From Nitratireductor indicus C115 (GTDB taxonomy: Bacteria; Pseudomonadota; Alphaproteobacteria; Rhizobiales; Rhizobiaceae), in the NCBI RefSeq assembly GCF_000300515.1, contig NZ_AMSI01000001.1:1-64000 (forward strand): 64,000 nt of DNA. Reading direction: 5' to 3'. Under the pieces are notes generated by a model. The model did not search any database, had not been told where the DNA came from, and saw only the letters and a program-made list of their open reading frames with translations. Shown in pieces: positions 503-61,748 of the stretch. The stretch's first letter is position 1. Every line of letters starts with the position of its first letter. A program made the translations under genes and the position numbers.

Positions 503-2806
503 ATGCCGATCATCAAGCCCTCGACCGCGTTCAAGCAGAGTGCCGATTGGGTTTCGGCGGAAGTTCGCGCCTACATGAAAGATCAGGTCTCCACGCATGT
601 CGATACCGTGGCCGATGTGCGCGACAATGATTTCGAGCAGACGCGGTTTATCTTCGTCAAATCCAAAGCTGCGCTCTATCGCCTCGATCTGTCCAGCGGT
701 GCGGCTGACGATGGCGATACGGTCCTGCGTGACAATGTCGGCCGGCGATATGTTAAGGTGGCCGGCTCCACCATTTCCCTGCTTGGCATCCCGCAAGTTG
801 ATGACCTCACGGCTCGGGGAGATTATGACAATGAGGACCCTGGTTTTATGGTCCTCGTGTCCGATACGGGATCGGGCAGGGCCGCGATCTACACCATGAG
901 CGATGGCGGATCGGGTGATTGGAGCGATCCGGCTTATTTGACTGGCACTGAAGGGCCGCCCGGCACTCCCGGTCCCGCTGGCGAAGGCTTCAACCTCGCC
1001 GGGGAGTGGGACAACAGCACCAGTTACGATGCCAACGACACTGTTTGGTTCGGCAGCCGCACTTTCGCATCGAAGGTGGATGGGAATGTCGGGAACGAGC
1101 CTCCTAGCGCCGACGAGGATGACGAATACTGGCAATTCGTCCCGGCCGCACAGGGCGCGAAGGGCGAGAAAGGTGACAAGGGAGACAAGGGAGATCAGGG
1201 CGACACGGGTCCAGAGGGGCCTCAAGGCCCCGAAGGCCCTCAGGGTCTAAAAGGTGATAAGGGCGACAAGGGGGATACTGGACCTGCTTGGGACGGATGG
1301 CAGGGCGAGTGGGCAACATCGACCGCCTACGAAAAGTTAGATACCGTCGAGCGGGGCGGATCGTCCTATATCTGCACATCCGCCCACACATCAGGTTCGA
1401 CCACAGAGCCGGGGGTAGGGGCCGATTGGCAGACTGTCTGGGATCTTGTCGCGGCCAAGGGACAGGATGGCGCAGGCACAGGCGATGTTGTCGGGCCGCC
1501 CGGTGGCGTTGTCGACAATGAGATTCCTCTTTACAGCGGAACGACTGGAAAGCTTATCAAGGGTTCCGGCCTGAATGTTTCTCAGATTGCTTTGACGGCA
1601 TCTTTGGGTGATGCCGCTTTTCGAAATACTGCGACCAATTGGGCCGGTAACGCCACAGACGATAACGTTATTCCTCGTTTGGGTTATGTTGCAAATCTTG
1701 TTTTACAGGATTTTGGAGATTATTACACCGGGACTTCAGCGCTGAATATCGATACCGATTGCAATGCAGGATTCAAGGGCCTTGTTGCAGCCACTGGTAC
1801 GAATACTGGAACATTCCCGCCATATTCTCCCACTCAATCGTTTTGGCACATTCAGGTCGAAAATATCTACTCACAGGACTTATCGCTGCGCATCATAATG
1901 CGTGCAGTCACTTACCCGCCAACCACAACGGGCACCACTTCACCGGTCATTTATATTCGTCACAAGGGAAACGACACGAGTTGGGGCCCATGGACCCGGG
2001 TAATGACCGATGCGGGGGGTGAGTTCAAAAGCGGCATCAGCTTCGGTTCGCAGTGGGCGGCGGATGCCAGCAACCTCTCCAGACACATTGCCCTATACGG
2101 GTCAACGGTGGGCATAAATGCCTACAGCAACGGAATGAACCATGTCGTCGAAGACGGCTACACTTTTTCTTGGTATCAGGGTACCAGTCGTGCGGCTCTG
2201 ATCTCCGACTCGGGCCATTTCTATTCAAAAGGTAGTATGTATGTCGGTGGCGTTCGCTCCAGCAATGGCTCAGCGACCCTTGGCTTCAAGACTTTCGCCT
2301 CTGGCGTCTATGATACCGCAAGAATTGTTGCCACGGGTGGGACTAGCGGCGACACAGGTTCGGCCACCTTGGCCGCTAGTTGTTCCGCTTTCAGTGTCAA
2401 CGGGAATATCGTATGGGATGCTGGAAATTTCGACCCTGACGATTATGCTACGCTGACCGGCGCAGAAGTCATCTCCGCGAAGCGCATCATGCCTCGCGTG
2501 TTCATTTCGACAACCGCCGCATCGATAACCCCGGATCTCGATTCATACGATCAATATTCCCTGTCCGCCCAAGCGGCTGCCCTTACCATCAATGCGCCTA
2601 TCGGCACGCCGCAGGACGGCGAAAAACTTATGATCCGCCTCAAGGATAATGGGACATCTAGGGCGCTGACGTGGGGCGCTGGTTTCCGTGGCATCGTCGA
2701 CGCATTGCCGTCCGCAACCGTTCTCGGAAAGCAGATGTATTTCGGCTTTCTCTACAACAGCGGAGCTGCGAAATGGGATATGATCGCTTACGCTGTGGAG
2801 CCTTGA
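503..2806 (+). CDS. Phage tail fibre with collagen-like repeats and pyocin-knob-like domain
   Basis: This 767-residue protein reads as a host-recognition fibre. Residues 1-145 look like a tail-attachment region. Collagen-like Gly-X-Y runs occur at about 150-162 and 219-262, where GEKGDKGD-type triplets would form a trimeric shaft. Two Trp/Tyr-rich modules around 166-213 and 267-315 resemble carbohydrate-binding (ChtBD3/CBM5-12-like) repeats. About 405-505 resembles the pyocin-knob domain, ending in a DTSWGPWTRV stretch. The C-terminal 200 residues are likely the tip. The start is supported by a GAGGAAA Shine-Dalgarno sequence. The gene below begins 1 base after its stop. Family assignments come from memory of domain patterns; the tail-fibre call is secure, the binding target unknown. 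Confidence 0.9.
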   Translation: MPIIKPSTAFKQSADWVSAEVRAYMKDQVSTHVDTVADVRDNDFEQTRFIFVKSKAALYRLDLSSGAADDGDTVLRDNVGRRYVKVAGSTISLLGIPQVDDLTARGDYDNEDPGFMVLVSDTGSGRAAIYTMSDGGSGDWSDPAYLTGTEGPPGTPGPAGEGFNLAGEWDNSTSYDANDTVWFGSRTFASKVDGNVGNEPPSADEDDEYWQFVPAAQGAKGEKGDKGDKGDQGDTGPEGPQGPEGPQGLKGDKGDKGDTGPAWDGWQGEWATSTAYEKLDTVERGGSSYICTSAHTSGSTTEPGVGADWQTVWDLVAAKGQDGAGTGDVVGPPGGVVDNEIPLYSGTTGKLIKGSGLNVSQIALTASLGDAAFRNTATNWAGNATDDNVIPRLGYVANLVLQDFGDYYTGTSALNIDTDCNAGFKGLVAATGTNTGTFPPYSPTQSFWHIQVENIYSQDLSLRIIMRAVTYPPTTTGTTSPVIYIRHKGNDTSWGPWTRVMTDAGGEFKSGISFGSQWAADASNLSRHIALYGSTVGINAYSNGMNHVVEDGYTFSWYQGTSRAALISDSGHFYSKGSMYVGGVRSSNGSATLGFKTFASGVYDTARIVATGGTSGDTGSATLAASCSAFSVNGNIVWDAGNFDPDDYATLTGAEVISAKRIMPRVFISTTAASITPDLDSYDQYSLSAQAAALTINAPIGTPQDGEKLMIRLKDNGTSRALTWGAGFRGIVDALPSATVLGKQMYFGFLYNSGAAKWDMIAYAVEP

Positions 2807-3986: not shown

Positions 3987-4328
3987 CTACATGGCAGCGG
4001 CCATAGAGCCGTTGTCATCATCGTGGTTAGATTGCCTGATCTCCTCAAGCATCTTGCGAACAAGCTTGGGGTTCTTGGCGATCATCAGCAGGTATACGCG
4101 GGCATTGTCCAGCGGGCGGCTGCGTCCCTGTTCCCAATCGCGAATTTGCGAGATGGAAAAGAAAAACTCGGCCGCAAAATCCTCTTGCGACAGCCCAAGG
4201 GCCTTGCGAATAGCTTTGATATCGATCTCGGCAGGAACATGAAGCTTGCGCGGTTTGGCCGTGCCACGGGCGACGGCCAATGCCTCGTTCATGCCCTCCG
4301 CGATCTGGTCGAAAACCTTTTTGCTCAT
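3987..4328 (-). CDS. HigA-like XRE-family antitoxin
   Basis: A 113-residue protein with a helix-turn-helix at about residues 40-85 (ALGLSQEDFAAEF...ISQIRDWEQGRSRP), the XRE/Cro pattern seen in HigA and MqsA-type antitoxins. It follows the toxin gene on the same strand with a 4-base ATGA overlap, giving the toxin-first order usual for higBA. It should neutralise the toxin and repress the operon. The pair sits antisense inside the prophage late region, so it is expressed in the lysogen independently of the structural genes. The cognate operator was not resolved. Confidence 0.87.
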   Translation of the reverse strand: MSKKVFDQIAEGMNEALAVARGTAKPRKLHVPAEIDIKAIRKALGLSQEDFAAEFFFSISQIRDWEQGRSRPLDNARVYLLMIAKNPKLVRKMLEEIRQSNHDDDNGSMAAAM

Positions 4329-4699
4329 GTCCGTTCTCCAGAAGCGAGCGGCAATACACGCCGCCCATACTCATCAACAATCTGATCCGAAATCTTTTTC
4401 AGACCGTTACGTTCCGCTTTGGAAAGGGAAACCTTTTGGCTCTTGCCAAAGACGGTAAGCAGAAACACCGGCAGATCATCGCCCGAGAATAGGGTGATTG
4501 TACGAACGCCGCCGCTCTTGCCTTTATTATTGCCCCGAATGCGAAACCTGACTTTGCGACACCCGCCCGTACCGGGGATTTCATCCCCGGCATCAGGATT
4601 GTTCGCGAGGTACGCAATCAAATCCTGAATGTCCTCATCAGACATGCCCGCCTCTTCGGCAGCACGTCGAAAGCTATTGAGTTCAGCTACGGTTTGCAT
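4325..4699 (-). CDS. RelE-family toxin (HigB/RelE-like)
   Basis: A 124-residue protein whose central part (KVRFRIRGNNKGKSGGVRTI, then FLLTVFGKSQKVSLSKAERNGLKK) matches the RelE/HigB mRNA-interferase pattern: basic strands followed by a C-terminal Lys-rich helix. The first 40 residues form an acidic helical extension (AGMSDEDIQDLIAYLANNPDAG) as in the RelE-like subfamily represented by PF06296. It is the first gene of the pair with the XRE antitoxin. Likely role: plasmid-like stabilisation of the prophage, or superinfection immunity; that role is inference. Confidence 0.87.
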   Translation of the reverse strand: MQTVAELNSFRRAAEEAGMSDEDIQDLIAYLANNPDAGDEIPGTGGCRKVRFRIRGNNKGKSGGVRTITLFSGDDLPVFLLTVFGKSQKVSLSKAERNGLKKISDQIVDEYGRRVLPLASGERT

Positions 4700-4778: not shown

Positions 4779-5555
4779 ATGGACCGCAATTTCGCGCGGG
4801 CGCTTCCGCTTGTCCTGAAACATGAGGGCGGATGGGCCGACAATCCGAAAGACCCTGGCGGCGCGACAATGAATGGGGTCACGCTGGCCACCTTCCGCCG
4901 CTATGTGAAGGCGGACGCCAGCAAGGCCGATCTGCGCGCTATCTCCGATGATCAGGTGGCAACCGTCTATTATCGACACTATTGGGCGGCGGTGAACGCG
5001 CAGGCGCTTCCGTCAGGCATCGATTATGCGGTGTTCGATTTTGCCGTGAATTCCGGGCCAGCCCGCGCGGCAAAGTATCTGCAATCCATCGCTGGCGTGT
5101 CTGTCGATGGGCGCGTTGGTCCGCAGACTATTGAAGCCGTATCGGCCATGGATGCTGCCAAGGTCATCAACAAGCTCTGCGACGCTCGCATGTCGTTCCT
5201 GCGCAAGCTGAAGCATTGGCCTACATTCGGGAATGGCTGGACGCGTCGTGTCGATGATGTGCGGCGTGATGCGCTTGCTATGGTTGGGCAACCGGCAGAC
5301 GTAAAGGAAGTCACTGTAACGAAGCCTGTTGTCCCTGAGGCCGTCGAAGAGAAGGTCAAGGAAAAGACCGGGCTCTGGCAGAAGCTCACGGGTTTCTTTG
5401 GTGCAGGTGGTGTCGGCGGCGGGCTCTTATGGGGTGTTGACTGGCAGACGCTCGCAGTGATCGCAGGGGCGGCAATTCTGGTGCTGCTTCTGATCGTTCT
5501 CTTGCGCCGGCAGATCGTCAACGCAGTGAAGGATATCCGGGAAGGGCTGGCGTGA
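4779..5555 (+). CDS. Phage endolysin, GH108-type lysozyme with C-terminal membrane segment
   Basis: A 258-residue endolysin. Residues 1-90 match the glycosyl hydrolase 108 (ZliS-like) muramidase, with the catalytic Glu in KHEGGWADNPKDPGG (Glu16). About 95-175 matches the peptidoglycan-binding PG_binding_3 region (GVSVDGRVGPQTIEAV). After a charged linker (VEEKVKEK) there is a strongly hydrophobic segment near residues 220-243 and a basic tail, which should tether the enzyme to the inner membrane. A leading AAGGA Shine-Dalgarno fits ATG 4779. It begins the lysis cassette and overlaps the spanin gene at TGATG. Confidence 0.9.
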   Translation: MDRNFARALPLVLKHEGGWADNPKDPGGATMNGVTLATFRRYVKADASKADLRAISDDQVATVYYRHYWAAVNAQALPSGIDYAVFDFAVNSGPARAAKYLQSIAGVSVDGRVGPQTIEAVSAMDAAKVINKLCDARMSFLRKLKHWPTFGNGWTRRVDDVRRDALAMVGQPADVKEVTVTKPVVPEAVEEKVKEKTGLWQKLTGFFGAGGVGGGLLWGVDWQTLAVIAGAAILVLLLIVLLRRQIVNAVKDIREGLA

Positions 5556-5806
5556 TGCTTGGCTTCATCCTCTCACCCATAGGGAAGGCCGTGGGCAGTG
5601 TTCTGACGGTCGCAGCTCTAGTGGTCGGCGTCTACGCCTATGGCTATCAGCGCGGTCGCACGGTCGAACAGGTAGCTTTCGCGCGAAAGATCAATCATGA
5701 AAACAAGGAGGCCGGCAATGCGGCTGAAGACTGGCGGGCTCGCTATCGCCGCTGCGCTGAGCGTGACGGGCTGTACGACTTCGAAACCGGTGCCTGCGAC
5801 GAGTGA
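5555..5806 (+). CDS. i-spanin (Rz-like inner membrane subunit)
   Basis: An 83-residue protein with an N-terminal membrane segment (VGSVLTVAALVVGVYAYGYQ) followed by a charged periplasmic helix. That is the architecture of Rz i-spanins, which span the periplasm together with an o-spanin to fuse the membranes at lysis. ATG 5555 overlaps the endolysin stop as TGATG; a GTG at 5552 is an alternative. The companion lipoprotein gene starts inside it in another frame, the classic overlapping spanin layout. The sequence itself is too diverged to assign by family. Confidence 0.75.
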   Translation: MLGFILSPIGKAVGSVLTVAALVVGVYAYGYQRGRTVEQVAFARKINHENKEAGNAAEDWRARYRRCAERDGLYDFETGACDE

Positions 5807-5963
5807 CGGCCTGCGCTCCGTGGTCGGAACGTCGCTGATCGGGGCGAAAGGGGCAACCTCGCGCGATCAAGGCAAGATTGATGAGACGGTTGCAGGTCTC
5901 TGCGGTGCATCGATCTGGACGCCATCGGAATGCGCCCGCCATGGGCGAGCGGTTTGGGAATAG
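5718..5963 (+). CDS. o-spanin lipoprotein (Rz1-like), nested start
   Basis: An 81-residue protein starting at ATG 5718, inside the i-spanin gene in another frame. It begins with a basic stretch and hydrophobic core ending in the lipobox LSVTGC, so the mature lipoprotein starts at Cys with TTSKPVPAT. o-Spanins are short outer-membrane lipoproteins of this kind, often Pro-rich. About 89 bases overlap the i-spanin and the rest extends beyond it. It ends 5 bases before the next gene. Lipoprotein status is read from sequence; partnership is inferred from layout. Confidence 0.75.
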   Translation: MRLKTGGLAIAAALSVTGCTTSKPVPATSDGLRSVVGTSLIGAKGATSRDQGKIDETVAGLCGASIWTPSECARHGRAVWE

Positions 5964-5968
5964 CGGGC

Positions 5969-6310
5969 ATGACTCAGGCAAGCGTGGAGCGCACCCTTGG
6001 GCAAATCCTGGGGGAGCTCAAGGGGATCGACGATCGGCTGAAGCGCGCCGATGACAGCCGCGCCGTGGTGCATCGCCGCCTCGATGAGGTGAGCGAACGC
6101 CTTTCGCATGTGGAAGGTGAGGTCGAGGCGACTAAGAAGACGGTCAACGACATGAAGCCGGTCACCGATGATATGGCGCAGTTGCGCACTCAGGCTGCCG
6201 GCGCCGGAACACTCGGGCGATGGCTCATTCGGATCGGCATCGGGGTGGTAACGCTCGCGAGCTGGATCGTTGCTGGGTACACGTGGCTGACGGGACGCCC
6301 GCCGCCGTGA
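5969..6310 (+). CDS. DUF1515-like coiled-coil membrane protein
   Basis: A 113-residue protein from ATG 5969. Residues 1-70 form a heptad-rich amphipathic helix (LGQILGELKGIDDRLKRAD then RLDEVSERLSHVEGEVEAT) and the C-terminus holds one membrane segment (LIRIGIGVVTLASWIVAGYTWL). This resembles the DUF1515 family found in rhizobial phages and gene transfer agent-like clusters. It is the last gene of the lysis cassette, so a holin-like or lysis-timing role is possible but not shown. An upstream ATG at 5930 would overlap the o-spanin. Confidence 0.7.
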   Translation: MTQASVERTLGQILGELKGIDDRLKRADDSRAVVHRRLDEVSERLSHVEGEVEATKKTVNDMKPVTDDMAQLRTQAAGAGTLGRWLIRIGIGVVTLASWIVAGYTWLTGRPPP

Positions 6311-6365
6311 TTTGTGCAACATGTGTCACATTTTCACCTGCAGGACGATAGGGCGGGGCATTGGC

Positions 6366-6940
6366 GCGGTGCGGTGCCGCGTCAAACAAAGGTTGTGGGC
6401 CCGAACCTTTACGGGGTGGCCGGAAGTAGGCAAGTTTTCCGGCTTAACCCGCTGATCCTGTTCGCTTGAGGGGTGGCCGGTTCATCCCCCAATGGGGGAA
6501 GTTCGATCACGCCCCGCCGTGCCATGCTTCGGCAGGTCCTTGGTTTCATGAGATGTTTCGACCAATTGCGGGAAAATCCCGTGTTTGGCCGATTCATCCG
6601 CCATTGGCGGAAGTCGTTGATTTCCAACGGCTCAAATCTGAGCGCCCCGCCGTGGGGCGAGTGAGCCGGTTGGTTTGCGCCAGCGTGGCGCGAACTGGAA
6701 ACGAGCCCAGATTTGGACCCATGGGTCCGGTTTGCGCTCCCCAGAAATGGGGGCCTCACTGCCGATCTTATAACGGTGATAAGATGCGTCCAGATTTGGA
6801 CACATCGGCAAGCGTTACCATCTGGGTAACGGACGTGCGCCACGGCGGCGCGGGTAGGAGGCTTATCCTTCGCGCCCTGACCTTTCCGCATCCTCCCCAA
6901 CTGCCCCGCTGGCCTCGCGCTGGCGGGGCTCTTTTTTGCG
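6366..6940 (+). ncRNA. Candidate structured RNA: hairpin array in prophage
   Basis: The 755 bases between 6311 and 7065 hold no convincing gene. Instead I find a dense series of short perfect stems with small loops: 6388-6394/6404-6410, 6419-6425/6437-6443, 6485-6490/6494-6499, 6569-6573/6577-6581, 6597-6602/6606-6611, 6630-6634/6639-6643, 6643-6648/6654-6659, 6673-6681/6687-6695 (one G-U pair), 6715-6720/6723-6728, 6739-6743/6748-6752 (GAAA tetraloop), 6765-6771/6779-6785, 6788-6792/6797-6801, 6813-6819/6825-6831 and 6837-6841/6847-6851. A terminator follows at 6903-6935 on the plus strand, so the transcript would run in the late direction. Stems differ in sequence, so this is not a repeat of one binding site. 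It could equally be a structured 3' UTR of the lysis operon. Class unknown. Confidence 0.45.
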
Positions 6941-6977
6941 TTTGGGGATGGCGGATGAGTATGACGCGGCACCGCAC
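6369..6977. repeat. 16-bp perfect inverted repeat bracketing the hairpin array
   Basis: GTGCGGTGCCGCGTCA at 6369-6384 is exactly complementary to 6962-6977, and two further pairs follow after one mismatch (6366-6367 with 6979-6980). The arms enclose almost the whole hairpin region including the terminator. They could be a closing stem of a large RNA that reads through the terminator, or the ends of a small mobile element. No target duplication is evident next to the arms. Confidence 0.7.
6901..6938 (+). terminator. Strong rho-independent terminator
   Basis: GCCCCGC (6903-6909) pairs with GCGGGGC (6923-6929), and is followed by CTCTTTTTTG. This is the natural end of the phage late transcript or of the hairpin RNA before it. 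Confidence 0.85.
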
Positions 6978-6985
6978 GGCGTCAA

Positions 6986-7002
6986 TGTCGGAAAATCCGA
7001 CA
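6986..7002. other. Isolated 7-bp hairpin beyond the terminator
   Basis: TGTCGGA (6986-6992) and TCCGACA (6996-7002) enclose an AAA triloop, sharing the GGAAAATCC core with the hairpin at 6569-6581. It lies after the terminator and outside the 16-bp repeat, so the hairpin series extends beyond both. Confidence 0.6.
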
Positions 7003-7065
7003 ATGAGATTGCAAACCGGACGTTGCCCATGGGCGACAAAGCAGACACAGGGGACGGACTTCAGG

Positions 7066-7353
7066 TCAATCCCAGGGCTTGATGATCACTCCACCGTTAG
7101 GGCGGAAGGTCAGGCGAAAGACGGCTTTGGGATAGACGCCTTCGCTCTCAGCCGGCCCGCAATACACCTTCGTGACGGTGCCGTAGGCATCCTCTCCTTT
7201 GGCGTAGGCCAGCTTCACCAAGGGGCAATTAAAACCTGCTTGCCGGATGCCCGCGGCTACGTCCCGAGCCATCACTGGTGTCACATCGATTTCGCTGCTG
7301 TTCGCTGGAACAACGGCTGCAGCTAGGGCCGCGCTCGCAATAAGAGCTTTCAA
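7066..7353 (-). CDS. Small secreted protein of unknown function
   Basis: A 95-residue protein with an N-terminal signal peptide (MKALIASAALAAAVVPANS, likely cleavage after Ala or Ser) and two cysteines about 23 residues apart (FNCPL and KVYCGP) that could form a disulfide in the periplasm. The C-terminus ends in FRLTFRPNGGVIIKPWD. It is the last gene before the broken comM and runs opposite to the lysis genes, a typical place for a lysogenic-conversion (moron) gene. No known family is recognised. Confidence 0.7.
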   Translation of the reverse strand: MKALIASAALAAAVVPANSSEIDVTPVMARDVAAGIRQAGFNCPLVKLAYAKGEDAYGTVTKVYCGPAESEGVYPKAVFRLTFRPNGGVIIKPWD

Positions 7354-7489: not shown

Positions 7490-7520
7490 AGAATTAGTGG
7501 CTGCCCTCTTTGGGCAGGTC
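7490..7520. other. Probable prophage attachment junction in comM
   Basis: The comM reading frame matches its family through PKEGSH and then hits a stop (TAA at 7494-7496 on the minus strand), where intact proteins continue YDLP. The shared core would therefore lie around GGCTGCCCTCTTTGGGCAG (7500-7518). The other junction and the integrase are outside the window. Confidence 0.6.
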
Positions 7521-7733
7521 CGCCGGCGCCAGATTTACGGTGACCTTCTTGGGCGGCATGGAAAGGCCGGACGCGTGAAGCGCTGCCTGCACGCGCTCGC
7601 GGCTTTCCGCCACCGCCTTGTCGGCAAGCCCCACGATCTGCATCCCCATTTTGCCGGGCGCCACCATCACCTGGACGTCGACAGGAATGGCTTCAATGCC
7701 CTGAAATGCAATCGTGCGAACCCGCGAAACCAT
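7494..7733 (-). pseudogene. comM: comM (yifB) N-terminal fragment, cut by prophage
   Basis: These 79 codons match the N-terminus of ComM/YifB, a hexameric AAA+ magnesium-chelatase-like helicase of about 510 residues that aids branch migration in transformation. Visible family features are MVSRVRTIAFQGIEA, the PGKMGMQIVGLADKAVAESRERV segment and PKKVTVNLAPADLPKEGSH. The frame then stops, so all the ATPase domains are missing. In related genomes comM lies beside gshB, as here, so this is the original locus. The remainder is predicted at the far end of the prophage. Confidence 0.88.
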
Positions 7734-12090: not shown

Positions 12091-12175
12091 TGGTGCCCAG
12101 GAGAGGACTCGAACCTCCACGCCTCGCGGCACACGGACCTGAACCGTGCGCGTCTACCAATTCCGCCACCTGGGC
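12091..12175 (-). tRNA. tRNA-Leu (anticodon CAG)
   Basis: On the minus strand the sequence folds as a class II tRNA. The acceptor stem GCCCAGG pairs with CCTGGGC, followed by ACCA. The D arm carries GGTAGAC, the anticodon loop is TTCAGGT with CAG at 34-36, a long variable arm (GTGCCGCGAGGCG) is present, and the T loop is GGTTCGAGTCC. CCA is encoded. Confidence 0.97.
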
Positions 12176-44598: not shown

Positions 44599-45147
44599 AT
44601 GAATGTCATCGACACGGATGCCTACGGAATTGCCACTGCACCTGACACGGTTCGCTTCGAGCGCGTGCTGCCGGGGCCTGTGGAGCGGGTCTGGGCCTAT
44701 CTCACCGAGGCGGACAAGCGCCGTCAGTGGCTTGCCGGTGGCGCCATGGAATTGCAGCCCGGAGGGGCTGCCCCACTTGAATTCCGCCATGCCGATTTTT
44801 CCGATGAGACGCCGCCTGAACGCTATCGCGATGTGAATGAAAAGGGCTTCGTCCTGCGGAGCCGGGTTCTCGAATGCGACCCGCCGCGCCTGCTCGCCAT
44901 AAGCTGGCCGGGAGAAAAGACGGAAAGCGAAGTGGTTTTCGAGCTTTTTCCGGAGGGCTCCGAGGTCATGCTTGTGGTCACCCACAAGCGGTTGCCCGGT
45001 CGTGACGAGATGCTCAATGTCTCGAGCGGTTGGCATGCGCATCTGGGGATATTGCAAGCTGTTCTTGCAGAAACCGCAATGCCGCCCTTCTGGGCGCGCA
45101 TAGAGAAACTCGAGACTGAATACCGCGAGCGCTATTCAGGCGTTTGA
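44599..45147 (+). CDS. SRPBCC (AHSA1-like) ligand-binding protein
   Basis: A 182-residue protein of the START-like fold: FERVLPGPVERVWAYLTEADKRRQWLAGG near the N-terminus and PPRLLAISWPGEKTESEVVFELFPEG in the middle, the Aha1-domain pattern. ATG 44599 is preceded by GGAGG about 9 bases away. It forms a two-gene unit with the ArsR-type regulator; its ligand is unknown. Confidence 0.9.
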   Translation: MNVIDTDAYGIATAPDTVRFERVLPGPVERVWAYLTEADKRRQWLAGGAMELQPGGAAPLEFRHADFSDETPPERYRDVNEKGFVLRSRVLECDPPRLLAISWPGEKTESEVVFELFPEGSEVMLVVTHKRLPGRDEMLNVSSGWHAHLGILQAVLAETAMPPFWARIEKLETEYRERYSGV

Positions 45148-45242
45148 GGCTACCGCTGTTTCAGCGGGTCGAGAATGCCTCTCTATATAAAGAGTGATAA
45201 CTCTGGCGGGTGTTCGGGCGGCAGGTGCCGCCCGAAGCCACT

Positions 45243-46160
45243 TTATTTGCCTGCCTTTTCCCGGATGAAGGTGCCGGCATTCAGTTCATTGAAGGCCTGA
45301 ACCAGCTCTTCGCGTGTGTTCATGACGATGGGGCCGTGCCAGGCGACGGGTTCCTGGATGGGGCGCCCGGAAACGAGCAGGAAGCGAATGCCTCTTTCGC
45401 CGGCCTGCACCACCACCTCGTCACCCGTGTCGAACACGACGAGCGTACGGTCGCCGCTCATGTCGCGCAGATGCACCTCCTCGCCGTTGAGCTCTTTCTC
45501 AAGCAGTACGCCGAACGGCTTCGAGGCATCCCGGAACGTGCCCGAGCCCTCGAAAATATAGGCGAAGGCACTGCGATAGGTATCGACCGGCAGGACCTTG
45601 CGTTTACCGGGCGGCACCCAGATGTCGAGATATTGCGGATCGGCGGCGATACCGTCGACCGGTCCGCGCTTGCCCCAGAATTCACCGACAACGACGCGCA
45701 CGCGCGTGCCGTCATCATCGACGATCTCGGGAATGTCGCCCGCCTTCACGTCCTGATAGCGTGGTGTCGTCATCTTCTTGTCGGAAGGCAGGTTGGCCCA
45801 GAGCTGGAAACCGTGCATCCGGCCATTGGGATCGCCCTTCGGCATCTCCTGATGCAGGATGCCGCTGCCTGCGGTCATCCATTGCACATCGCCCGCCCCC
45901 AATGAGCCTGCATTGCCGAGACTGTCGGCATGGTCGACCGAGCCGGCGAGCACATAGGTGATCGTCTCGATGCCGCGATGCGGATGCCAGGGAAAACCGG
46001 CGCGATAGTTCTCGGGACGGTCGTTGCGGAAATCGTCAAACAGCAGGAATGGGTCGGCAAGCTTCGGATCACCGAAACCGAAGGCGCGATCAAGCCTGAC
46101 GCCTGCGCCCTCCATGGTGGGTTGCGCGTTTGATATCTGCTTTACGGGACGAATGGACAT
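45243..46160 (-). CDS. Pirin-family protein
   Basis: A 305-residue bicupin from MSIRPVKQI. The metal-binding cupin motif shows HPHRGIETITYVLAGSVDHADSLGN with the two early His and a later His, followed by AGSGILHQEMP with His and Glu. Pirins include quercetinases and redox sensors. The C-terminal cupin carries YIFEGSGTFRDASKPFG. It stands alone. Confidence 0.93.
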   Translation of the reverse strand: MSIRPVKQISNAQPTMEGAGVRLDRAFGFGDPKLADPFLLFDDFRNDRPENYRAGFPWHPHRGIETITYVLAGSVDHADSLGNAGSLGAGDVQWMTAGSGILHQEMPKGDPNGRMHGFQLWANLPSDKKMTTPRYQDVKAGDIPEIVDDDGTRVRVVVGEFWGKRGPVDGIAADPQYLDIWVPPGKRKVLPVDTYRSAFAYIFEGSGTFRDASKPFGVLLEKELNGEEVHLRDMSGDRTLVVFDTGDEVVVQAGERGIRFLLVSGRPIQEPVAWHGPIVMNTREELVQAFNELNAGTFIREKAGK

Positions 46161-60071: not shown

Positions 60072-61748
60072 ATGTCCAAAAGCGAACGACTGAAAGCTCT
60101 ATTGTCGGCTGGGTACTTCCCAGAGGAGTTGCCGCCGGCATTCACGACTGCAGATTTCGCAAAATATCGCCGTGCCATTGGTGATGCGTGGGCAGCACTC
60201 CCAAATTATCCGCAGTATCCGAGGACAAATCCGGAGCGATTTAGCATCCCAAAGGTAACTGATTGGCGACGGGAATTAGCGATCGTCAATCCGATCGCGC
60301 AGTACCATGTGGCGAAGCTCATTGCCGATGATTGGCAACAAATTCGTAAGCACCTTACTTCGTGTAGCTTTGGCGTCGAAGAGGTTGAGATAAAATTCGA
60401 TCGAGATAGGGCCGTCCCGACGCCAGACTTCCGACTTGTTTCCTTGAGGCACTCGGAAATCTCGGCGATCCACAATCATGCGCTCGTCGCAGATATCTCT
60501 CGATTCTACAGCACACTCTATACTCATGCCATTCCGTGGGGGTTGCATACCAAGGCATGGGCTAAGGCCAACTTGAACAACGCCGCTGTTTATGACCCCT
60601 CACTGGGAGCTCGTTTGGATAAGGCTGTTCGCAAGGGGCAGGACAACCAGACTATCGGCATTCCCGTCGGGCCCGACACCTCCCGCATTATCGCGGAAAT
60701 TGTAGCGGTGTCCATTGATGCCAGAGTGCAAGCCGAGTTGAAATTGGCGGTCGAAAGCATCGTTCGGAACGTGGACGATTGGTACATCGGCTTTGACAAT
60801 GCTGGGCAGGCCGAAGAGGCGATAGCCGTGCTCGCAGCGGCTGCCCGTGATTACGAGTTGGAGATACATCCTGAGAAGACAAAGGTAGTGAACTCGGCCA
60901 ACGAGGTACAGGCTGTTTGGCCGACTGCACTACGCCAAAGTCCCATTTCCTCTGACTTTTCCGAGCAATCTAAGACTATCGACCACTATTTCGCTCAAGC
61001 TTTCCAATTCGCCGCCGAATATAAACGGTCGAATGTCCTGCGCTTCGCCGTCAACCTTCTCCGAAGCGTCGATATTCTGAAGGTGAACTGGCCTCAGTTC
61101 GAGACCTACTTATTGAAGGCGGCTCGGGCGAACGCGACCACCATACCGATGGTGGTGCATCTTTTGGCGCTATACAATGCAAAGGGCTTTCCGGTTAAGA
61201 AGGACCGGATTGCAAAATTCATCAAAGATACCATCGCGAAGTGTGGGCCATCGGCCGCCCACTACGAAATTGCGTGGGCCTTGTTCCTAGCCAAAATGCT
61301 GAGGATCACCCTTCCAGCGGATTGGGTGCAGCCAGTGACGAAATTGGAGAGCTCGGCTTGCGCTTTGGTCTTGCTCGACCTGCGCCAGATGGGCCTCATT
61401 GACGGGGCGATTGATGTGTCGCTGTGGACCCAAGCGATGACCGTAAAGGGTCTTGAGTCCAATCTGTGGCTCGTAGCCTACGAAGCGGACCTGAAAGGCT
61501 GGTTGACGCCTCCCACTGCTGGCTTCGTTCAAAACCACCTCTACTTTGCCGAACTCCGACGGCGGAACGTGTCGTTTTACGATAAGGAACGGCGTCTCAA
61601 GAATGTTCGACGCAGCAAGCCTAAGAAGCCATCGGATGCCTTCGTGCGCCATATGGCTGCGCTTCGGAGCTGGAAAATGGAAGAAATAGACGCCCAGGAT
61701 TTGCTCGAGGAATGGGAACTCCCCGGCGACGATTACGGGGGCTATTAG
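60072..61748 (+). CDS. Abi/UG-type reverse transcriptase (probable antiphage defence)
   Basis: A 558-residue protein. Reverse transcriptase motifs in the first half: VADISRFYSTLYTHAIPW (catalytic Asp141), GIPVGPDTSRIIAEIVAVSIDARV (196-219), VRNVDDWYIGFD (Asp235 and Asp236) and LEIHPEKTKVVNS (263-275). From about residue 290 the protein is helical with repeat-like Leu/Ala segments, like the C-terminal region of Abi and DRT proteins. It lacks the NAxxH and VTG motifs of retron enzymes and any maturase or endonuclease domain. The gene is visibly less GC-rich than its neighbours and stands alone between slyX and rpsA, as acquired defence genes do. Exact DRT class not assigned. Confidence 0.87.
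   Translation: MSKSERLKALLSAGYFPEELPPAFTTADFAKYRRAIGDAWAALPNYPQYPRTNPERFSIPKVTDWRRELAIVNPIAQYHVAKLIADDWQQIRKHLTSCSFGVEEVEIKFDRDRAVPTPDFRLVSLRHSEISAIHNHALVADISRFYSTLYTHAIPWGLHTKAWAKANLNNAAVYDPSLGARLDKAVRKGQDNQTIGIPVGPDTSRIIAEIVAVSIDARVQAELKLAVESIVRNVDDWYIGFDNAGQAEEAIAVLAAAARDYELEIHPEKTKVVNSANEVQAVWPTALRQSPISSDFSEQSKTIDHYFAQAFQFAAEYKRSNVLRFAVNLLRSVDILKVNWPQFETYLLKAARANATTIPMVVHLLALYNAKGFPVKKDRIAKFIKDTIAKCGPSAAHYEIAWALFLAKMLRITLPADWVQPVTKLESSACALVLLDLRQMGLIDGAIDVSLWTQAMTVKGLESNLWLVAYEADLKGWLTPPTAGFVQNHLYFAELRRRNVSFYDKERRLKNVRRSKPKKPSDAFVRHMAALRSWKMEEIDAQDLLEEWELPGDDYGGY

Follow-up and report, generated by a model that had tools for sequence, protein, structure and literature searches.

The right end of the prophage

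The window analysed here (the whole stretch of DNA under study) is the first 64 kb of a 544-kb contig, from a genome of 4.99 Mb. It opens within a prophage that is truncated at the contig start, and only the right end of this prophage lies in the window. That end carries a tail-fibre-like gene, a toxin gene with its neighbour, and a lysis region, followed by the subject of this work—a dense row of short hairpins, hereafter the array—and then by a terminator, the last prophage gene, and the remnant of a host gene (Table 1). The remnant, which we take to be comM, is a ChlI-like gene of which only 79 codons remain where the prophage meets it. In all 10 other genomes of the genus sample, similarity begins exactly at position 7495 of the window, and the junction between prophage and host is therefore placed there. 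An earlier note on this DNA had put the array after the lysis genes and before the end of the prophage, which agrees with a junction at about 7495.

Table 1. Features at the right end of the prophage, with positions in the window.
Feature	Position	Strand	Remarks
Tail-fibre-like protein	503-2806		Collagen repeat
RelE-like toxin and adjoining HTH protein	3987-4699	-	Between prophage tail and lysis genes
GH108 endolysin	4779-5555		
Two small proteins in the position of Rz and Rz1	5552-5963		First protein: weak Rz-like matches
DUF1515 protein	5930-6310	+	Pfam PF07439, E=4.2e-14; last gene of the lysis region, array directly 3′
Left arm of 29-base inverted repeat	6359-6387	+	Contains a 5-bp stem with 7-base loop
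Hairpin array	6365-6851	.	15 perfect stems of 5-7 bp
Duplicated hairpin unit, copy 1 (29 bases)	6474-6502	.	86% identity to 6586-6614
Duplicated hairpin unit, copy 2	6586-6614	.	
Inherited phage segment	6868-6960	+	Terminal part of a different phage gene, then the intrinsic terminator (stem 6903-6929) and its downstream flank
Right arm of inverted repeat	6959-6987	-	Past the terminator
Post-terminator hairpin	6986-7002	.	7-bp stem, 3-base loop
95-aa protein, last gene of the prophage	7066-7353	-	Signal-like start by eye
Truncated gene, presumably comM (Mg-chelatase ChlI-like)	7494-7733	-	Pfam ChlI, E=2.3e-20, 60/121 profile positions

The 95-aa protein occurs in 2 of 395 genomes of the family, its own included, and in one viral contig; its relative in genome G054 (L118:1000-1776) adjoins a frame that looks integrase-like by eye. 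A possible tRNA, also seen by eye in L118, was not confirmed by ARAGORN, which finds none there, and the sole tRNA detected in the window lies at 12091. The host genome holds three DUF1515 genes (G000:C1:5930, G000:C2:318688, and G000:C10:3), of which the copies on C2 and C10 are 94% and 96% identical to that of the window, the C10 copy running off its contig end.

Stem density and folding

Stems were scanned for as perfect Watson–Crick pairings, 5 bp or longer, that enclose loops of 2-12 bases. The 15 stems found in the array have loops of 2-11 bases and follow one another at about one per 32 bases; two further stems, at 6962-6984 and 6986-7002, lie 3′ of the terminator, where the earlier note had counted one. 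Of the stem lengths that it gave, 5-9 bp, the lower part stands as perfect stems of 5-7 bp; longer stems, of 9-11 pairs, are seen solely in folds that allow G-U pairs. Its GAAA tetraloop is present in the scan, closed by the stem CCCCA-GAAA-TGGGG at 6739-6752, as are its AAA and AAT triloops, together with ATT triloops.

Between 6388 and 6900 there are 14 stems with 83 paired bp; in 200 dinucleotide shuffles the stems averaged 4.6 ± 1.8 and never exceeded 10, and the paired bp averaged 24.8 ± 9.7 and never exceeded 50. The minimum free energy of 6311-6945 on the plus strand is -290.7, compared with -257.5 ± 7.9 for 20 shuffles (z -4.2), with a z of -3.6 on the minus strand. When folding is kept local (pairs at most 60 bases apart), 6388-6867 reaches z -4.9 on the plus strand and -5.6 on the minus strand, and none of 200 shuffles folds as low; the signal peaks at about 6560-6860. 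The claim of a dense row of about 15 short hairpins is thus confirmed both by stem count and by folding beyond every shuffle, and the shuffle check that had been proposed for it places the array outside the control distribution.

As a background, about 464 kb of host DNA was cut into overlapping 513-base segments, drawn from twenty self-chosen 20-kb stretches and the rest of the window. The array segment, with 88 bp in 15 stems, ranks first against 9,048 others (mean 29.0 ± 10.6 bp). One other stretch, at 44951-45463, approaches it with 14 stems and 83 bp, mostly within open frames of 205 and 315 aa; it holds five stems of at least 6 bp where the array holds nine, and its folding z is -3.3/-3.9. 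In the gap between its two frames lies an 11-bp stem (45213-45236). Folding at z <= -4 was met in 4 of 150 segments taken from the twenty stretches, a noisy estimate with 15 shuffles each. From these two comparisons it follows that the stem density of the array is extreme for the host genome, while its folding energy alone is only high.

Coding potential

The array appears to be non-coding. In every phase its codon-position GC content stays within 0.56-0.64, against 0.68/0.51/0.76 in the adjoining DUF1515 gene. Searches with six frames spanning the region found nothing in PHROG better than E 0.016, three array frames gave no Pfam match at E <= 1, and the longest plus-strand frame gave none by tblastn against 50,697 phage records at E <= 1. 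A hidden protein gene, whose codons happen to form hairpins, would have to use a frame of 286 aa on the plus strand or 187 aa on the minus strand, and both are indeed open over most of the array; the missing codon-position bias and the empty searches nevertheless make such a gene very improbable, and the plus-strand frame continues through the terminator and then runs antisense to the 95-aa gene. The earlier statement that no coding frame explains the array holds on both counts, flat codon-position GC and searches without a family match.

Repeats in and around the array

The stems had been described as all unlike one another. Most of them do differ; the description fails for a 29-base unit that stands twice in the array with 86% identity and for a 29-base inverted repeat that flanks the array and the terminator together. 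The arms of the latter are complementary at 26 of 29 positions (self-BLAST E=1.3e-5), and each contains a stem of its own. Searched with up to 3 mismatches, a 24-base core of the arm is found only in these two arms among the 11 genomes of the genus, the host's included, and a 22-base core is absent, as an exact match, from the viral contigs. Read by eye, the stem of the duplicated unit shows one compensated change (C-G to G-C), the inverted-repeat arms show two broken pairs and one change from wobble to pair, and the repeat pair 6676/6836 has lost one pair. Since kept and broken pairs occur side by side among the copies, the duplicates offer no clear hint of selection on pairing.

Repeats of at least 14 bases amount to three two-copy families only, with spacings of 112, 83, and 160, and near-identical, regularly spaced direct repeats of the CRISPR kind are absent. 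The duplicated motif has two exact sites in the host genome, neither of them outside the array; with one mismatch, 3 sites lie elsewhere, compared with 2 for a control pattern. All other matches of the array in its own genome at E <= 10 are at chance level (22 pieces of 15-32 bases, best E 0.17). Tested by repeat families and by own-genome matches, the array is therefore neither a CRISPR nor a REP array, as had been said. For k of 4-7, its commonest k-mer is no more frequent than the top k-mer of 500 shuffles, an argument against the array offering one ligand many sites.

A variable slot and an inherited terminator

By blastn, the region matches 5 of the 11 genomes of the genus, its own included, and in the others the match is confined to 6868-6945. 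In two of the matching loci (L005 and L006) the shared piece consists of the 3′ end of a different phage gene, whose 108-aa frame closes with GGFAP, and the terminator after it. The terminator or its flank is also common to L002, L007, and L047. Similarity to L002, the C13 copy in the host's own genome, whose contig holds just about 160 bases before the terminator, stops at about 6960. In L047, the stop codon of a DUF1515 gene 88% identical to that of the window stands about a dozen bases from a terminator of the same kind, and no array lies between them. Because this relative passes directly from DUF1515 to terminator, the array is taken to be an insert or replacement between the DUF1515 gene and an older terminator. 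The strong terminator had been taken as a sign of a dedicated RNA; it predates the array and occurs in relatives that lack one, and so it is weak evidence for that purpose.

What relatives carry at this place was followed through six downstream proteins from five viral loci. In L050 the slot holds a dCTP-deaminase of the PADLOC defence set (E=8.5e-165), in L048 an AAA protein, in L047 an ion channel, and in L054 a protein weakly similar to both a defence candidate and an AAA domain; L054 also encodes a small protein that matches the toxin BrnT. Two slot proteins of L046 had no match (one against both libraries, the other against PADLOC only). With other cargo at the same place in relatives, the array is best read as cargo in a variable prophage slot, and the presence of a dCTP-deaminase defence gene among that cargo makes a carried function plausible here. 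None of the other loci scanned reaches the density of the array, the best being L034 and L106 with 68 paired bp each; L034, hairpin-dense at the same place, was rejected as a second array, its open frames indicating coding on the other strand. One 20.9-kb viral contig matches twice (L092 and L093), 10.4 kb apart, as if it held a doubled 10.4-kb sequence.

Searches for relatives of the array

The genus, family, and order samples comprised one genome per species and were each drawn from a larger group. Positions 6300-7100, searched by blastn, matched one of 50,697 phage records and one of 72,556 plasmid records, in both cases in the terminator part only. Among 297 family genomes there were 7 with matches, the host included, and besides the host these were to the terminator part and one 25-base piece; among 397 order genomes there were 3, again with the host, showing two short pieces that read as chance matches. 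The viral contigs, scanned five times for exact motifs, gave 3, 3, 0, 0, and 0 loci, the six loci having no array when read, and an exact motif scan of the genome contigs gave none. No Rfam family of 4,227 matched 6250-7100 at E <= 5, in keeping with the earlier view that the array belongs to no known family.

A covariance model of 6556-6700, built from a single sequence given twice, was run against the 297 family genomes under strict filters and matched 4 of them at E <= 0.1, the host among them (best other E=0.025); these other matches (L112-L114) have ordinary stem density. Run over 42 sources, the model matched the window alone. No second array was thus found in the phage and plasmid records, the 11 genus, 297 family, and 397 order genomes, the motif scans, Rfam, or the covariance search. 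The array had been proposed as a possible new class of phage RNA; a class needs at least two members, and with one locus the proposal is not supported. Searches of the literature for hairpin arrays in phages or for RNA decoys and sponges found no matching paper, and those for noncoding content of prophages or morons found nothing on point by title.

One hairpin of the array, at 6782-6808, recurs nearly exactly over 25-27 bases in a viral contig (L068:370-396) and in genome G085 (L012:1501-1525). The L068 copy lies behind genes that were read as a lysis region, and looser matches fall under an anti-repressor gene in three Vibrio phage records. This recurrence is probably a coincidence of palindrome and codons.

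Comparison with known systems

In architecture, the array resembles CsrB and RsmZ, which are likewise a string of short hairpins with a terminator, here an inherited one. It has 2.9 stems per 100 bases, compared with 2.2 in E. coli csrB and 1.6 in rnpB, and sense/antisense z values of -5.2/-5.1, compared with -4.9/-5.6 for csrB and -1.9/-1.5 for rnpB; in both density and z values it is thus nearer csrB than rnpB. It departs from CsrB and RsmZ in having no GGA in the loop of a perfect stem, in a host where no CsrA was found, and in its prophage location.

GOLLD and ROOL are described as large RNAs of phages and prophages, often near tRNA islands, GOLLD being of unknown function and ROOL having no known protein partner and a predicted fold with several pseudoknots (PMC12286853). 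The array differs in its local stems, in its lack of an Rfam match, and in that the window's one detected tRNA lies at 12091. REP/REPIN elements and the mitochondrial double-hairpin or RHE elements resemble it as short palindromes in intergenic DNA; they are, however, families of repeated sequence, whereas the stems here mostly differ and own-genome matches are at chance level. Cargo hotspots are reported for P2-like phages and P4-like satellites (PMC9122126). The array shares with prophage defence-cargo spots its place 3′ of the lysis genes and the changing content of that place, but its own content is non-coding. The array is real, dense, and apparently non-coding, and by the tests applied it does not belong with CsrA sponges, Rfam families, CRISPRs, or REP-like repeats.

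Proposed RNA and competing explanations

The best reading, held tentatively and at somewhat less than even confidence, is that the array is a structured 3′ cargo RNA on the lysis transcript, likely a multivalent decoy. It lies on the same strand as the lysis genes with the terminator on its 3′ side, and the lysis operon would read into it; no sigma-70-like promoter is predicted on the plus strand between 5900 and 7500. (On the minus strand there is one weak promoter-like site, at 6985-6958, against 0.6 expected for the region.) We infer that the late lysis transcript includes the array as its 3′ portion, that this portion folds in the cell during synthesis into a row of some 15 short hairpins, and that it ends at the phage's ordinary terminator. 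The product would be a compact RNA tail or released fragment, stable through resistance to nucleases, and its multivalent, CsrB-like architecture might bind or occupy a target such as a host or rival-phage factor that binds or cuts RNA; sponge and decoy roles, which the earlier note had already raised, are speculative. Counting against an RNA are the observations that folding at z <= -4 is not rare in the genome and that stems continue beyond the terminator. An apparent strand asymmetry, with 10 GT against 2 AC next to stems, was discarded when it disappeared in comparison with controls (P=0.27): base composition predicts both the surplus of G-T relative to A-C and the lower energy of the plus strand.

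The chief competitor is palindrome-rich DNA with no RNA role, raised by duplication and hairpin-templated repair at a phage-mosaic exchange point and now a neutral or slowly decaying spacer. Taken by itself this is possible but doubtful, although a DNA-level origin is nearly as likely as a structured RNA. It would account for the equal folding of both strands relative to composition, for duplicated and inverted copies in and around the array, for stems on either side of the older terminator, and for the lack of a homologue, of an outstanding k-mer, and of a plus-strand promoter; the site is moreover a recombination joint, whose right edge bears the end of another phage's gene. Fifteen mostly unlike stems would, however, be hard to reach by templated mutation, and csrB, a true RNA, is just as strand-symmetric, so that symmetry does not exclude an RNA. 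The 29-base inverted repeat could instead bound a small element, mobile or invertible, whose body is the hairpins, as the good complementarity of its arms and the stem within each might suggest. An older phage terminator lies inside the arms, which therefore do not outline a single insertion; with no further arm cores in the genus genomes or viral contigs, and no transposase or invertase among the scanned frames, such an element is quite improbable.

Two functional alternatives fare worse. Palindromes beside lysis genes and near a phage end would suit a packaging or replication site, but relatives with similar lysis genes have no such array at that place, which disfavours an essential site; the packaging role suggested earlier is thus held to be very unlikely, and the array is probably not a packaging site. 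A strict CsrA/RsmA sponge would match the layout of hairpins with a terminator, and the array has nine GGA triplets, yet none of these nine (in 480 bases) lies in the loop of a perfect stem. The CsrA profile PF02599 finds no match in the host genome at E <= 0.001, while the same search is positive in 3 of 14 controls, including E. coli, and this explanation can be practically discounted.

If the structured cargo RNA is indeed transcribed, it would be a protein-less RNA in a slot where a relative carries an anti-phage gene, and searches for protein-coding defence genes would miss it. That it is also the first observed representative of a prophage cargo RNA class—mostly unlike hairpins acting as RNA-only decoys or triggers in phage-phage conflict, placed where a relative carries a defence gene—is unlikely. 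If it is only DNA, the array would be a striking example of palindromes accumulating where phage sequences have recombined.

Elsewhere in the window, 53 kb away from the array, lies a gene for a defence-associated reverse transcriptase (60072-61748, plus strand), which matches PADLOC Drt6 (E=4e-170) and Drt4 (3e-147) as well as Pfam RVT_1.
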